Shown piece by piece: positions 42,578 to 63,384 of a stretch of 64,000 nucleotides of DNA. Both the position numbers and the translations under genes were made by a program. The notes under the pieces are model-generated. The model made no database searches. It saw only the letters and a list, made by a program, of their open reading frames with translations, and was not told the origin of the DNA. Positions within the stretch are counted from its first letter, which is position 1, and every line of letters begins with the position of its first letter. The stretch lies in assembly GCA_001630475.1 (NCBI GenBank), contig KV419397.1, positions 999,758 through 1,063,757 on the forward strand. The letters are read 5' to 3'. Source of the DNA: Sistotremastrum niveocremeum HHB9708 (lineage: Eukaryota; Basidiomycota; Agaricomycetes; Sistotremastrales; Sistotremastraceae).

Positions 42578-42848
42578 CTGTACATACACGACCGTAACAT
42601 ACGGGCGTAACGCCGTAACGATCTCAGGAACCACTATTTTGACATATTCACAAGATTTTGACCGTAACGTTTCAAAGATTTGACATACTGTGAGGGCAGG
42701 ATATACCGGCCGGCGTAGCCGGCCTGCCGAAAATTCAATACTCAACATATTCCAACTTCCAAGCAGGCGGAACGTAACGTCACGCCAAAATCGCATACGA
42801 AGTCGGGAATTTCGACCGTAACGGTATGTTACGGTCGTGTATGTACAG
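42578..42848. mobile_element. Miniature TA-target TIR element (Tc1/mariner-like MITE)
   Basis: 271 bp. Termini are perfect inverted repeats of at least 25 bp starting CTGTACATACACGACCGTAA, flanked on both sides by TA (42576-42577 and 42849-42850). The interior is rich in CGTAACG motifs and has no coding capacity. TA target duplication and size fit a Tc1/mariner-type non-autonomous element. It sits immediately upstream of the start codon of F-box-like member 3; the second A/T pair of its target duplication forms part of that ATG. Confidence 0.8.
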
Positions 42849-44731: not shown

Positions 44732-45992
44732 ATGAAGAATCTACCTCCTGAGTTGCTCGGGAAAATCGCACAAAATTACGAACTTGGGAGCGCCTTCAGT
44801 TTTGAGACGATGGGCACCCCGACACAGTCGCGTGGACAATCTACTTTGCTCAACCTAAGCTTAGTTTCAAAAGCATGGTACTCTGAAGCTCAGAGGTCTC
44901 TGTGGTCAGAAGCCTTTGTCTTCGTACCAAGTGGCGAGAACAATATTCCTACAGCATCGAGGTGGCTCAAAAGCCTCGAAATAATGCTACAAAGAGGACA
45001 CTCCCGGTATCTCAAGAGGTTGGGAATCCGATTAGACAGGTCGTCGTGGGGTGTCCCCGAGAAGAACGCGTTCCGCCAATCCATTCTTTCAACGACTTCC
45101 ACAATCTTAGACAACGTACCTCATCTGGAGACTCTCTTAGTCAGTAGCGATAGCATCCAGCTATCGCCCGACTTAGATCTCGCAGGCCTCTGCTTCTCAA
45201 ATCGACATTTTCCTGCATTGCGTACGATGGACTTATTAGTGTACGCAGGCTGGGAAAGAAATCATCCCCTCCAATTGTACCCTTTTCTCCTCCGACATCC
45301 TCACATTTCTGTCCTTCGGATGCATGTCCTCGACGGCACACTCCTCGGGACCAAGAGAGTTCCCGAAGCACTTCCACATCTGAAACGCTTTGTCGGAGGA
45401 ATGGAAGAAGCAAAGCTTCTAGCTTGTCAGGGGACTTTACAGTCTCTCGAATTATTCGTGGATCGTCTAGAAGGCGGACAATTCCAACAGCGCTTCCTTA
45501 AGCTCGTCAAGAATATCGACGGACCCTTTCCAGCCGTCAAGTACGTTTATTTTAGACGTATACGCGTCCCCATCCTCGATTTAGAGGTCGTTGCACAACT
45601 GGACAGATGCTTTCCCAATCTTGAACATTTGGAGGGATTGGTCATGAACGCGTCATTCATCGTGGGAACTTTATTCGTCGATACATACCCTACTGATGAA
45701 ATGACATTAGAATGAGATCCGAACATGTCCAACGCTTTGCAAAGGATTGCTTCCAAAATTGAAGCAACTCACTTTGTTCTGGCATGATCTTGTCTCCGAC
45801 AGATCTGACCATCAGCCGATGGAGGAGGCCATGCGCTTGTTACCCCTTTCATTTCCCGAGATACGCGTTTGTAGTCAAGGGATGGGCATTCAGGATCGTG
45901 GATTGATGAGGCGGACGTTGTCCTGTGAATACGGCGAAGATGGAAACGTAGTCAATTGGGATGGGCCGGAACATCCAGACTCAGAACAATGA
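44732..45992 (+). CDS. F-box-like/LRR protein, plus-strand group, member 4
   Basis: Exons 44732-45661 and 45711-45992 (403 residues). The ATG at 44732 (MKNLPPELLGKIAQNY) matches the start of the sisters; an in-frame ATG at 44699 is less likely. F-box-like LLNLSLVSKAWYSEAQRSLW, then RWLKSLEIMLQRGHSRYLKR. The last intron (gtggga...tag, 49 bp) follows LEGLVMNASFI; the last exon starts NEIRTCPTLCKG and has MEEAMRLLPLSFPEIRVCSQ and CEYGEDGNVV. Most divergent of the plus-strand group but intact. Confidence 0.7.
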
Positions 45993-46459
45993 GTGTATCG
46001 AAACCATCCCAAGGTTTCATTATGTTGTTTGGTTGCTTGGAACGTACTATACTTTGACATCAAATGATACAAGAAATGACACTCAGAAGGAGGTTAACTA
46101 CTCAGTAAGAACACACAACGTCGACCACACTAGAAAAATAAATTCAGTACTCCACAACATACATCATTTCTCTTGCAAAGATGCCCAAGCGACCGTTTAC
46201 TACATCAAACCATCCTGGATAGGCTTTCTTAAAAACCTTGGGCGGATCCAGTCGGATCCAGCCCGATCCGTTTCCGTACCTCATCACTTGTCGAGGGTCA
46301 GTGAGAGTCATGTCGGGTACTTGAAGAAGATACAGGAACGGATGATTATTTGATCCAATGACGGAACTTTCGATACCACGGCACGAGAACTGGATTGCGG
46401 GGAGCATTGGAGCGGAGCTGGGTAGAGTGACGGGTATATTGATGGGCATGCCGGGAGTA

Positions 46460-46796
46460 CTGTAGAAAATCGACCATTGCGGCGAGGGTGGGGACAGGGG
46501 ACCACGAAAACACACTGCGGCGACGCGGCAACAGGGTCCGGGACAAGGGACAAAATGTAAAAATTTACTTTAAATCACAATAAATCGTCGTAATCTGGTT
46601 CCTTTTGACCTGTAAATGTCTTGTTACAACACGGATGATGTTCATGCGCAACTGGGAATATTTTCGCAGATTTTTCGAATATTTTAATGATTTATTTATT
46701 AATTTACAGCGAAAGGGACAAGGGACAATTTGAAATTTTAGCGGCACGGCGGACCCTGGGGACAGGGGACACGCCGCTATGGTCGATTTACTACAG
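46460..46796. mobile_element. 337 bp TA-target MITE in F-box exon
   Basis: Flanked by TA (46458-46459 and 46797-46798). Inverted ends start CTGTAGAAAATCGACC on the left and CTGTAGTAAATCGACC from the right, about 25 bp with two mismatches, followed by GGGACAGGGG-type motifs at both ends. No coding capacity. Like the element at 42578 it begins CTGTA and has a TA duplication, so a Tc1/mariner-like origin is likely. The host codon (Asp-Thr, GATACT) is restored if the element and one TA are removed. Confidence 0.8.
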
Positions 46797-47153
46797 TATC
46801 GGGGTGAGGAATGAGAGGCTCGACGCGAGCGAACCGCATCTTCTCGCCTGAGCTTGTCGTTTGCATCACGGTGCGAGCGATAGCAGTATACGTGATGCGA
46901 GAGGCCCTGGCTATAGCTTCAGCGTCATAGTCATCTTCATCCACCCATTCGTCGTCATCTTCGACATCCTCAAGATTGATGATCTCATCCTCGTCGGCTG
47001 CTTCGGCTTCGTCATCATCGCCATCCAGCGGTAGAGGAGGAGCTTGACCTTTGGCTTGAACGTCGAAGACGAGATCCATACTGCCATAGAAGGCAGGCCG
47101 ATAGTTGACATACCTGTTCATGCCGGGTGACTTGAATGATATGTGCCCTGCTA

Positions 47154-47251
47154 CTTCAGAAAAAATTAGACCTATTAATTGTACTTTTGAGTACTTTTTA
47201 GTACTCCTGAGCGCTCAAAAGTACAATTAGTAGGTCTAATTTTTTCAGAAG
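47154..47251. mobile_element. 98 bp foldback element with TA target
   Basis: Almost the whole element is an inverted repeat: arms of about 42 bp beginning CTTCAGAAAAAATTAGACCT (left) and CTTCTGAAAAAATTAGACCT (right), with a short loop. Flanked by TA on both sides (47152-47153 and 47252-47253). It lies in an exon of the F-box gene between LQMEM and AGHIS; without it GTA (Val) is restored. It is the smallest autonomous-looking insertion unit of the window and would form a strong hairpin in RNA. Confidence 0.85.
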
Positions 47252-47745
47252 TACCATCTCCATTTGCAGCACAGGCCATAACTGAGGCTGCGATGCTGTC
47301 GGGTTCGGGGCATCATCGTTGATGAGATAGGAAGGAAGTTGGATGTCCCTCAAGACTGTTTCTTTTTCGCCGTCGTCGGACAAAGTCATCCAATTTAGGA
47401 GCAGAGAGTCTTCTCGAACGGGATTGAGTTTCACGTCTGTCAGTATAACGCCGGAAGCTTTGAACAGCGCTTTGGCCTTGCTCCTCCAATTGAAAACGCG
47501 AATGATGGGACTCCCGAAGGAGAAGAGGACAATGAGGGAGCCACGTAGCTCCACGCCACGTGGGAAAGCCATGGGGGGAAGCGTTAGAGAACAGACGGTT
47601 TCGCCACGACGGAGCATGGATGTCGTTCTGTTGAAATAGAATGTATCTACGTAGATGTGTCTGATGACGCGGTCAGATGGTTAGATGCTGCGCAGACAAA
47701 GGAGGACTCACGATCTCTCATCCATGTTGCCTCCCGTCCTGCACG

Positions 47746-48254
47746 TAGTGTTCTGAGGTCCAGTCACGACTGGACTTTTGACCCCCGGAGGGTGCAACTG
47801 GCAACTGCCGGTCCGGTTGCCGTCCAAAATTTGGTGTGACTGGCAACTGCGACTGCGGTTGCGGTCCAGCGACCGGTCACGGCTGCGACCAGTTGCGCAA
47901 CCAGTCATGGCCAGTTTTTCCACTCACAACTGGTCTTTTATTAATATTTTAATCATTATTATAATATACATGCTGTATATACACCTCATATGATGTGATA
48001 CATGCCTATAGACACCAATATATACTGTATATGTCACTCAAAACACCCATTTGAGACCCAAAATACCCTCTGGGTACCCTGGTTGGGGACCCTTAAGGGT
48101 CCTCGGTTGCGACCACGGTCACGACCGGTCATGACTGCAGTTGCCGGTTGCCTGATTTTCCAAGAACCTAGGCAACCAGCAACTGCGGTCCGGTCACGGT
48201 CCGGTCGCGACTGCCGGTTGCCACCGGTCACGGCAACTGGACCTTGGAACACTA
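47746..48254. mobile_element. 509 bp hAT-like MITE, TAGTG type, copy A
   Basis: Perfect 8 bp target duplication CCTGCACG (47738-47745 and 48255-48262). Termini TAGTGTTCTGAGGTCCAGT and, from the right, TAGTGTTCCAAGGTCCAGT. Both subterminal regions are packed with GGTTGC/GCAACC and CCAGTC/GACTGG motifs, typical transposase-binding clusters; the middle is AT-rich. Same family as 60334-61044 and 62714-63229 but a different subfamily. Inserted in an F-box exon. Confidence 0.9.
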
Positions 48255-48839
48255 CCTGCACGTACTCGTAGCTGATGCTACATAGATCTCTGCTTCCTCT
48301 CCATCTCCATATCCTAATATATTGCAGTCCAGTCCATTGACAGTCGGCCTCAGATGGAACATGCTGGGCTCGAACCACGAAAATTCACAGAAAACATTGA
48401 CGCTGGGGATGTACGCTGCGAGGAGCTTATCCTGTGTGAGGTATATCCATACGAGGTCTGGAAGGACTTGCAGCGTCTGAGGAGACGCATACGGGACCAA
48501 ATGCCAGTCAGATGGCTCTCCTTGCTTGGGGCTGACAGGCTTCCACGTCATCGCGTAGGTTTTGGCTGATAACTTGGATCTAAGTCGGGTGGCACGACAA
48601 GCAGACTCCAAGATTTTAAGAGGAGAGGATTTCGCTAAGGAAGTGATTGTGTGGCCAATGGGGATGGGTAGCAAATGCGAGTTGGCGGTATGTAAGAAGA
48701 GTTGACCAGCGAAGGCCAATATAATCGAGCGAAATCGCGAACATGTGTGCGAAATAACAATGACATCTTGAAAAGAGGGAAGAGAGAATATTTCCAGCAG
48801 AATTTCTGTCGGTAAAGCTGTAAGGGACGCGGTCGACAT

Positions 48840-51545: not shown

Positions 51546-52005
51546 TAGTGTTTGAAAGTCGGGTTAAGTTAGGTTATGGGCACTTCAGAGGCCCTAACCG
51601 TAACCAAACCGCGGTCATTTTTTGGGATTTTGCCCTAACCTATAACCGCCAACGGTCACGGTTAAGCCAAAATTGGGTGACCATGACCTGACTTTGACCG
51701 GTTAATGCGGTTATGACCTAAAAAAAGTCATAAATCTCCACTTTTTACTACTTAATCTAGGTCATTGGACCTCATATATGATGTATATGACAAGCAGAAC
51801 ACACCAGAAGGCCTGGGGAAGGCTGTAGACAAGGATCTACCCATGTTGGTCAAGGCAAGCGGTCAAGGATTCCGGGGAGGTCCATGACTGTGACTTGACC
51901 ACTAGCTCTGAGCCATGACCATTAACCATGGTTAGGTCACAAATGGTTAAGTTACGGCTAAGTCGCAGTTATTTGGCGGTTAAGTGACCTGACTTGCAAA
52001 CACTA
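51546..52005. mobile_element. 460 bp hAT-like MITE, TAGTG type, nested
   Basis: Perfect 8 bp target duplication GTTCAATT (51538-51545 and 52006-52013). Termini TAGTGTTTGAAAGTCGGGTT and, from the right, TAGTGTTTGCAAGTCAGGTC. The first 15 bases nearly match the 516 bp family, but the subterminal motifs differ (GGTTA/TAACC and GGTCA/TGACC), so this is a separate subfamily with shared transposase-recognition ends. Nested inside the 50631-53264 element. Confidence 0.88.
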
Positions 52006-61737: not shown

Positions 61738-63384
61738 ATGTCTTTCCTCCGCAAAGGCAAGAAGAACCCTCCGTGGTCGGAGCGCAACCTTCACGCCCTC
61801 GCCCTCGCCGATAATGTTCTCCCCCCTTCGGTGTCTGCTGAGGATGTACTGCGTATGCGGTTCCTCCTCAATTCTCTCGGCATGGGCGATATCATGCGGG
61901 CAGCTGATCTATCTGAAGCTGTCCACGAGGCCTTCATCCACAAGCGGCAAGTTCGCAAGTGGCATCGCGAAGAAACCGATCAACTTTTGAACGATATCGT
62001 GAGTACGCTCTTCTACTCAATTATGTCGATATCTGATTGTTCTCTTTCCAGGTCGGCGCAAAAGCGGCGTACGAAGATGTCGGTGTGATCACCATCACGA
62101 TTAGGCCAGAATATAACCCGGGGAAGACGACAAGGGGTGAAGAAAATATCTCGGTTTTGCTCCCTCCCCAGTTTCGCTACAACCCTGAAGTCAAGGCTCT
62201 GATCAAGACTTTTCGAACCGACCTGGCCCAGATCATCAGGCCTCATCTCACGTCGTTCCCCGCTCGCGCTCAATTCTCGGACGAATTTAAGGTGAGTAAC
62301 GAATGTCTATGCTTCCTGGTCAATTCTGAACGCAATTTTAGAACTTTTGGCACATGGATTTAACTGACAAGAGGTCCAAGATCCGTACCTCCTTCCCCAA
62401 CGGTCGCCTCCTCCTCGATCTCCCCAATCTCGCCGATTCGACCCCTGACGAAGAGTTCGACGAAACCTCTTCGCCGGTCAAGGGGGATGTCCCTCTCCCT
62501 GCCGATGTCGCTCCCGTTCCCACTCCCGTCGTTCCCCCCGTCGCTACCGCTCCGTCCACTCCTCGTAGAGAGGCACGCGGTGTCGCACAGCCGCGTCATC
62601 AGTCTCCCGTCCCGCCCTCGTCCGTTCCGTCGGTCTCGTCTTCGTCATCGTCCATACCTCGCACTCCTCAATCCCCTCGCGTTCGCGATGTGATGGACAT
62701 CGCACGAAACCACTAGGGTTTTAAAGTCCGGTCACGACTGGACTTTTTCCGTTTTTGCCCATGACTGGCAACTGCCGGTCCGGTTGCCTGCCAAAATTTT
62801 GGGCAACTGGCAACAGGACTGCAGTTGCGGTCCAGCAACCAGTTGCCAAAAAGACCAGTTGCCTGACCAGTCATGGCCACGACCTGAGGTCACAACTGGT
62901 CTAAATCATTATTTTAATCAATTATATATTACTTTTAGGTCTTATTAGTGGTCATATAGTGGCTAGTAACACATAGGAACACTATATAATACAATATATG
63001 ATGAATATATGGCCATAAATACCCACTTGACACCCAAAATACCCAGGGTATGCCCTTTCCCAGGACCCCTAAGGGTCCTCAGTCACGACCACGGTTGCGA
63101 CTGGTCATGACTGCAGTTGCCAGTTGCCTGATTTTTAGAAATCCAGATGACCAGCAACTGCAGTCCAGTCACGACCCCACCACGACCTTCGGTTGCCCGC
63201 AGTCACGTGGACTGGACCTTCGAACTCTAGAAACCACTTCCCCACTTCCCCTCCTCTCGCGCCCGTCTTCGTCCCTCGTCGAGGTCGTCGTGGCTATAAG
63301 ATGACTCAGACTCATACCGTTCTCTGGGTTTCCGGCTCTGAGGATGAAGACAATGCGGAACATGATGCTGAAGGCCAGCTCTGA
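61738..63384 (+). pseudogene. Uncharacterised basidiomycete protein, C-terminus cut off by a MITE
   Basis: Exons 61738-61998, 62052-62291 and 62342 onward. Function not recognised. The protein starts MSFLRKGKKNPPWSERNLHA, then VSAEDVLRMRFLLNSLGMGD, helical AVHEAFIHKRQVRKWHREET, a strand-rich core VGVITITIRPEYNPG and GEENISVLLPPQFRYNPEVK, NFWHMDLTDKRSKIRTSFPN, and a Pro/Ser-rich tail. At ARNH a 516 bp MITE (62714-63229) inserts; its first bases TAG form an in-frame stop, leaving 291 residues. After the element the original frame continues FPTSPPLAPVFVPRRG to EDNAEHDAEGQL and a stop at 63384, which would make 339 residues. Only a disordered tail is lost, so the truncated protein may still work. 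It may be a passenger of the neighbouring KDZ transposon or a host gene. Confidence 0.7.
62714..63229. mobile_element. 516 bp hAT-like MITE, TAGGG/TAGAG ends, copy C
   Basis: Perfect 8 bp target duplication GAAACCAC (62706-62713 and 63230-63237). Ends TAGGGTTTTAAAGTCCGGTC and, from the right, TAGAGTTCGAAGGTCCAGTC. Same length as the collapsed copy B and similar throughout, in opposite orientation. GGTTGC/GCAACC and CCAGTC/GACTGG clusters at both ends, AT-rich centre. Inserted into the last exon of the gene at 61738. Confidence 0.92.

Follow-up and report, generated by a model that had tools for sequence, protein, structure and literature searches.

The window analysed here is a stretch of 64,000 nucleotides, positions 999758-1063757 of contig C4, and all data on the locus come from a single assembly (34.7 Mb, 111 contigs). 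Its minus strand carries a gene of the F-box family that is interrupted by three small transposable elements (Table 1). With the elements and one target copy of each left out, 562 codons are open and the only intron is a canonical one of 51 nt, so that the frame is exactly restored, as the original prediction had it. An F-box-like domain is found at residues 7-40 of the product (PF12937, E = 2e-7, 31.1 bits against a cut-off of 24.3), and PF00646 reaches 23.4 bits on the same 562-codon product (cut-off 20.5); the interrupted gene thus carries the family domain above the curated cut-offs. PF12937 has at least 58 matches in the genome among the best 150 of 263 candidates, which were scored, and the F-box family is therefore large. 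The plus-strand neighbour gives an F-box-like match below the threshold, 22.5 bits vs 24.3. Its frame ends at 45715 and an overlapping open frame continues to 45992; it is possibly a second F-box gene, either frameshifted or spliced.

Table 1. Features of the interrupted F-box locus and further MITE-like elements of the window (window coordinates)
Feature	Position	Strand	Remarks
F-box gene with three insertions	46144..48839	-	ATG 48839, stop 46144-46146; 562 codons with elements skipped
Coding piece 1, exon 1 before the 509-bp element	48263..48839	-	F-box domain and following region; matches paralogues L067/L066
Target duplication of 509-bp element, copy 2	48255..48262	.	8 bp, CCTGCACG; read directly
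509-bp hAT-like MITE	47746..48254	+	TAGTGTTC...GAACACTA; ends and duplication read directly
Target duplication of 509-bp element, copy 1	47738..47745	.	8 bp, CCTGCACG; read directly
Coding piece 2, end of exon 1	47712..47745	-	past the 509-bp element; open frame with elements omitted
Native intron, 51 nt	47661..47711	-	GTGAGT...ATCAG; CTAAC/CTGAC branch-point-like motifs
Coding piece 3, exon 2 before the 98-bp element	47254..47660	-	open frame; weak match to paralogue L067
98-bp foldback MITE	47154..47251	+	ends CTTCTGAA...TTCAGAAG; TA at 47152-47153 and 47252-47253; in-frame stop 47198-47200
Coding piece 4, exon 2 between the 98-bp and 337-bp elements	46799..47153	-	acidic stretch; open frame only
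337-bp Tc1/mariner-like MITE	46460..46796	+	TA at 46458-46459 and 46797-46798; in-frame stop 46777-46779
Coding piece 5, exon 2, C-terminal part	46144..46459	-	matches C-terminus of L066
Neighbouring F-box-like frames	44732..45992	+	sub-threshold domain match
MITE-like inverted repeat, 271 bp	42578..42848		CTGTACATACACGACC...GGTCGTGTATGTACAG; TA-flanked
MITE-like element, 460 bp	51546..52005		hAT-type ends TAGTGTTTG...CAAACACTA; 8-bp duplication GTTCAATT
Relative (71%) of the 509-bp element, 516 bp	62714..63229		duplication GAAACCAC

The ends and duplications of the three elements (509, 98 and 337 bp) are read directly from the DNA and each element recurs in the genome; the claim that three unrelated MITEs lie within the coding sequence of one F-box gene is hence borne out. 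They were also said to lie in different exons. By the gene model this is not so, since exon 1 holds the 509-bp element alone and the 98-bp and 337-bp elements share the second exon. All three are positioned at or past codon 193 and each supplies an in-frame stop; the 509-bp element, read on the gene strand, opens with an in-frame TAG codon (48254-48252). With the elements unspliced, the product would now have at most 195 residues, namely the F-box and about 155 residues more. The three insertions are the only lesions of the gene, and its coding pieces hold no other stop or frameshift.

The 509-bp element has inverted-repeat arms that are 88% complementary, and its terminal repeats have the form that we take to be the hAT-type pattern. 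Its family has at least 44 further places at 93-97% identity and at least three more full-length places at 69-71%, along with shorter pieces (best 40 of 299 candidates scored). We read 32 distinct copies: two at 71%, of which one likewise lies within the window, and 30 near ones, made up of the window copy and 29 of the 44 further places. The 8-bp duplication is perfect in 30 of the 32 copies, carries a single mismatch in one and is absent from one, and most of the copies read have TAGTG...CACTA ends. Each of the 30 near copies differs from the majority sequence by 8-24 substitutions, with gap columns in none of them; a few further copies outside these 30 differ in length. C>T or G>A at CpG makes up 111 of the 482 differences among these 30 copies. 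Such scarce indel change is odd for plain decay. The 71% relative in the window has in turn a near relative (2.5% different) on contig C66. Positions 67248-70425 of C66 (L072/L008) form a dense cluster of 3.2 kb, with a hAT dimerisation domain, two copies from the 98-bp family and three from the 509-bp family.

The 98-bp element consists nearly entirely of two 43-bp arms, 93% complementary. Its family (L010-L038 and the window copy) occupies at least 40 places, that of the window included, at 88-100% identity (best 40 of 73 candidates scored), with one additional place at 71%. A 2-bp duplication is present in 25 of the 27 copies with readable flanks, and a 3-bp identity in just two of the 27. 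The TA attributed to this element is indeed found on both of its sides; across the family, however, the duplicated pair is TA in only 5 of 25 cases and another sequence in the other 20. The family duplicates any 2 bp, so that the TA at the F-box site is accidental, and a Tc1/mariner-like assignment, which would go with a TA-specific duplication, is ruled out. Thirteen of the 28 distinct copies read are identical to the majority sequence of the family, hence it has moved recently. On six contigs (C105, C93, C75, C42, C18 and C11; L010-L012, L014-L016) the match ends exactly 2039 bp from the contig end, a spacing as in a subtelomeric duplicated block, and on a seventh, C64 (L013), the copy lies 1662 bp from the end.

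The inverted-repeat arms of the 337-bp element are 93% complementary. Its family comprises 15 full-length copies, the window copy among them, and also has members that are partial or split (21 of 21 candidates scored). TA flanks all 15, the size is 337-339 bp in 13, and the nearer copies have CTGTAG...CTACAG inverted repeats. One copy, on C18, is split by about 520 bp. Among the genome matches, with all 21 candidates scored, no coding relative sharing the ends of this element was recognised. A pair of ends about 9.2 kb apart on C30 was considered as an autonomous partner and rejected, because the ends of the insertion repeat the same frames (L049, L054); we read C30 336294-345786 as a probable long-terminal-repeat element inside a copy of the 337-bp MITE.

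The exonic position of the insertion sites is judged from comparison with paralogues. The genome search yielded only two, both distant: L066 on C10 (E 4.3e-4) and L067 on C23 (E 7.5e-4), with 8 of 8 candidates scored; it gave no close paralogue or orthologue for an empty-site comparison, and a search with the downstream part of the gene matched only the gene itself. Paralogue protein pieces were assembled by hand from the listed frames, with guessed exon joins, and four segments of the F-box gene were aligned locally with five such pieces (20 comparisons, 200 shuffles each). Residues 1-192, before the first element, match L067 with z 17.7 and L066 with z 17.8, values that none of the 200 shuffles reaches in either case. 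Residues 458-562, past the last element, match the C-terminus of L066 (z 6.3, 0/200 shuffles equal) and weakly that of L067 (z 2.4, 6/200). The best match of the segment between the 509-bp and 98-bp elements is to L067, with z 2.9 (1/200 shuffles equal), and the segment between the 98-bp and 337-bp elements matches no piece of L066 or L067. The alignments indicate that both outer coding pieces belong to one family architecture, with the elements between them in a single frame; the middle of the gene model rests mainly on the open frame. As far as can be shown from such comparison, the insertion sites are exonic.

Exact restoration of the frame had been taken to mean that the insertions are younger than the loss of constraint, or came in quick succession. 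We note that a clean cut-and-paste insertion with target duplication always restores the frame in this way, so the restoration is no evidence of timing; all that follows from it is that the coding pieces have gained neither a stop nor a frameshift. Among the copies read, the one closest to the window copy is 17.5% away for the 337-bp element, 3.1% for the 509-bp element and 1.0% for the 98-bp element; the window copies have terminal branches of 0.080, 0.017 and about 0, respectively. These branches are only upper bounds on insertion age, since the divergence may have arisen in a donor that is now lost, and quick succession is not shown by them. In the 337-bp family, nearest-neighbour distances run from 0.018 to 0.286; near-identical pairs stand beside deep lineages, so divergence may predate insertion, and we rejected element divergence as proof of age. 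The bounds can still be set against the intact frame. A gene unconstrained for 0.08 substitutions per site would be expected to gain 4.1-4.8 stops, with a probability of 0.0085-0.017 of gaining none; for 0.017 substitutions per site the probability of no stop is 0.36-0.42 (indels are not counted in either figure). Thus, the branch of the 337-bp element overstates the age of its insertion, or else constraint on the gene continued past that event. On this scale the intact frame points to a recent end of constraint, or to constraint that outlasted the first insertion, and it leaves the relative order of the three insertions undated.

Hence, we suggest, with a probability of about 0.72, that this is a dispensable member of an expanded F-box family which was struck serially by three unrelated non-autonomous DNA transposons. 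The tolerated pseudogene, one of the two options originally offered, is then the best reading of the locus. The gene would have lost its function and would have been dispensable when the MITEs inserted into it one after another. Each MITE was presumably mobilised in trans by a transposase encoded elsewhere, of hAT type for the 509-bp element and of Tc1/mariner type for the 337-bp element. Candidate sources are present in the genome: the hAT dimerisation domain PF05699 has 21 matches (26 of 26 candidates scored), and DDE_3 (PF13358) has 11 at about seven places, 10 of them over the cut-off. Both counts are of domains, and none of the three families is tied to a transposase gene by matching ends. 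Constraint would have been lost so recently that no other stop or frameshift has accumulated.

The other option offered was a local insertion hot spot, in which DNA transposons gather irrespective of gene function. For this we used 112 hand-listed places of the three families, omitting the split 337-bp copies on C30 and C18 and one short 509-bp piece. There are 29 pairs within 2 kb among them, whereas 1000 uniform placements gave 0.74 on average and never more than 5; between-family pairs within 2 kb number 13, against 0.46 and a maximum of 4 in 300 placements. These counts give some support to a general clustering of MITEs, but they are overstated, because only the best candidates were scored and neighbours of those are over-represented. 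Clusters would also arise if dispensable stretches keep insertions for longer, the duplicated targets (CCTGCACG, TA and TA) have no common motif evident by eye, and no locus on the list other than the F-box gene has members of all three families inside 3 kb. The window itself has at least three further MITE-like elements outside the F-box gene (Table 1), which also speak for a hot spot. A scan of the window for such elements, whose strict seed missed the three in the F-box gene, gave two finds, a lower bound because of this seed and of runs of N, and none in three base-shuffled controls. By a hand estimate, three elements in the other 61 kb correspond to about 0.13 per 2.7 kb, or to about 3 in 10,000 for three or more per gene. 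A typical genome of this kind has about ten thousand genes, so that a few such genes are expected in the absence of selection against insertions. Overall, we regard a hot spot acting irrespective of the gene as unlikely.

The three families often insert into open frames, at a rate close to that of control points. Frames of at least 100 codons span the empty site in 9 of 15 cases for the 337-bp family (60%), 20 of 28 for the 98-bp family (71%) and 22 of 32 for the 509-bp family (69%); nearby control points are spanned in 50%, 61% and 67%, respectively. Ten of the spanned frames were searched with Pfam, and five have transposon domains: two reverse transcriptases, one tnp2 transposase, one integrase and one MULE. 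One further frame has a NACHT domain and four are without a match.

Two further readings leave the gene some function. The insertions might be polymorphic, with other alleles free of some or all of the elements and the gene functional in the species. The intact coding pieces and the 13 98-bp copies at unrelated sites that equal the majority sequence, a sign of recent movement, agree with this, but for the window copies of the other two families the copies read include no close counterpart, the nearest being 17.5% (337 bp) and 3.1% (509 bp) away; we hold polymorphism as possible, though tentatively. It is also conceivable that the gene remains functional through a truncated F-box protein 195 residues long, the downstream part being free to gather insertions. 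The domain does lie well upstream in an intact frame, and no element precedes codon 193. On the other hand, the 1.1 kb of downstream coding pieces are without stop or frameshift and similarity to a paralogue persists in the C-terminal piece, so any freedom there would be recent; we hold this reading as improbable.

A separate question is whether the 509-bp element functions as an intron that is removed together with one duplicate, as in introners. On the gene strand the junctions read CAG|GTAGTG...CGTGCAG|GAC: a GT donor arises where the first target copy, with its final G, meets the TA of the element, and the acceptor is supplied by CAG in the second copy of the target. The resulting GT-AG intron runs from 48255 to 47739 and has 517 nt, with a net change of 0. 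This geometry restores the original message exactly and resembles introners that borrow a splice site from the target duplication. In the passages of PMC9860276 read here, some introner families are described as bringing one splice site of their own and taking the other from the target duplication, and most families as leaving the message length unchanged after insertion and splicing; the fungi named there as having introners are Pezizomycotina.

Exact removal arises by chance in 5.0% of random 8-bp duplications on a given strand. Of 31 duplications in the family, two permit GT-AG splicing that takes out the insert exactly (both strands counted), vs about three expected; here the copy lacking a duplication was dropped and that with the single mismatch was entered by one of its two versions. 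Splice-permitting duplications are not enriched, usable splice sites do not recur across the family as in introners, and we rejected it as an introner family. The donor GTAGTG is poor by a simple score, the 517-nt pair falls outside the best 12 of the 165 in-frame GT-AG pairs enumerated within set limits, and at this size the intron would be ten times as long as the native one. The 98-bp and 337-bp elements with their TA duplications are not exactly removable, as GT is the only one of the 16 dinucleotides that permits it; the F-box gene would hence still be broken downstream. We also tried these two as introns, with 14 and 46 pairs enumerated, respectively, and rejected both: the best pair of the 98-bp element (among the best 12 of 14) also cuts 24 nt of coding sequence, and the two best of the 337-bp element (among the best 12 of 46) cut 78 and 36 nt. 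An intron function of the 509-bp element is thus very improbable. Slightly less probable still is that, judged from its junctions, a hAT-like MITE has by an accident of its target site become an exactly removable intron in a gene still in use. If true, it would mean that the birth of an intron from a transposon with terminal inverted repeats and target duplications is in progress in a fungus; the ascomycete introners described in the part of PMC9860276 seen lack both. The exact-splice geometry makes such a MITE-derived intron birth cheaply testable.

Among the papers surveyed by title and beginning of abstract, no fungal one concerned MITE-disrupted F-box genes or MITE-derived introns, which does not prove their absence. 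Two plant papers, PMC12018782 and PMC11022811, contain both terms, MITE and F-box. The F-box locus is a well-preserved case, yet an ordinary outcome and not a new kind of phenomenon. Its value is that of a clear example of small DNA transposons eroding members of a large gene family, with the frame otherwise intact. In addition, three MITE families are defined for the fungus, of which the 98-bp one was recently active and has an unspecific 2-bp duplication.

Compared with introners as presented in PMC9860276, the 509-bp insertion is alike in being GT-AG removable by means of its target duplication, and its family differs in having no bias to splice-permitting targets. The same family is like hAT-type MITEs in its 8-bp duplication, its inverted repeats and its tens of copies at 93-97% identity, and we see no structural difference from them. 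The 337-bp family resembles Tc1/mariner-type MITEs in TA duplication and inverted repeats; however, its copies are strongly diverged, and yet the eight that score nearest, among them the window copy, have no more than one gap column each. The unspecific 2-bp duplication of the 98-bp family does not fit Tc1/mariner, and the 98-bp element, being almost wholly made of two complementary arms, is like the foldback or palindromic MITEs.
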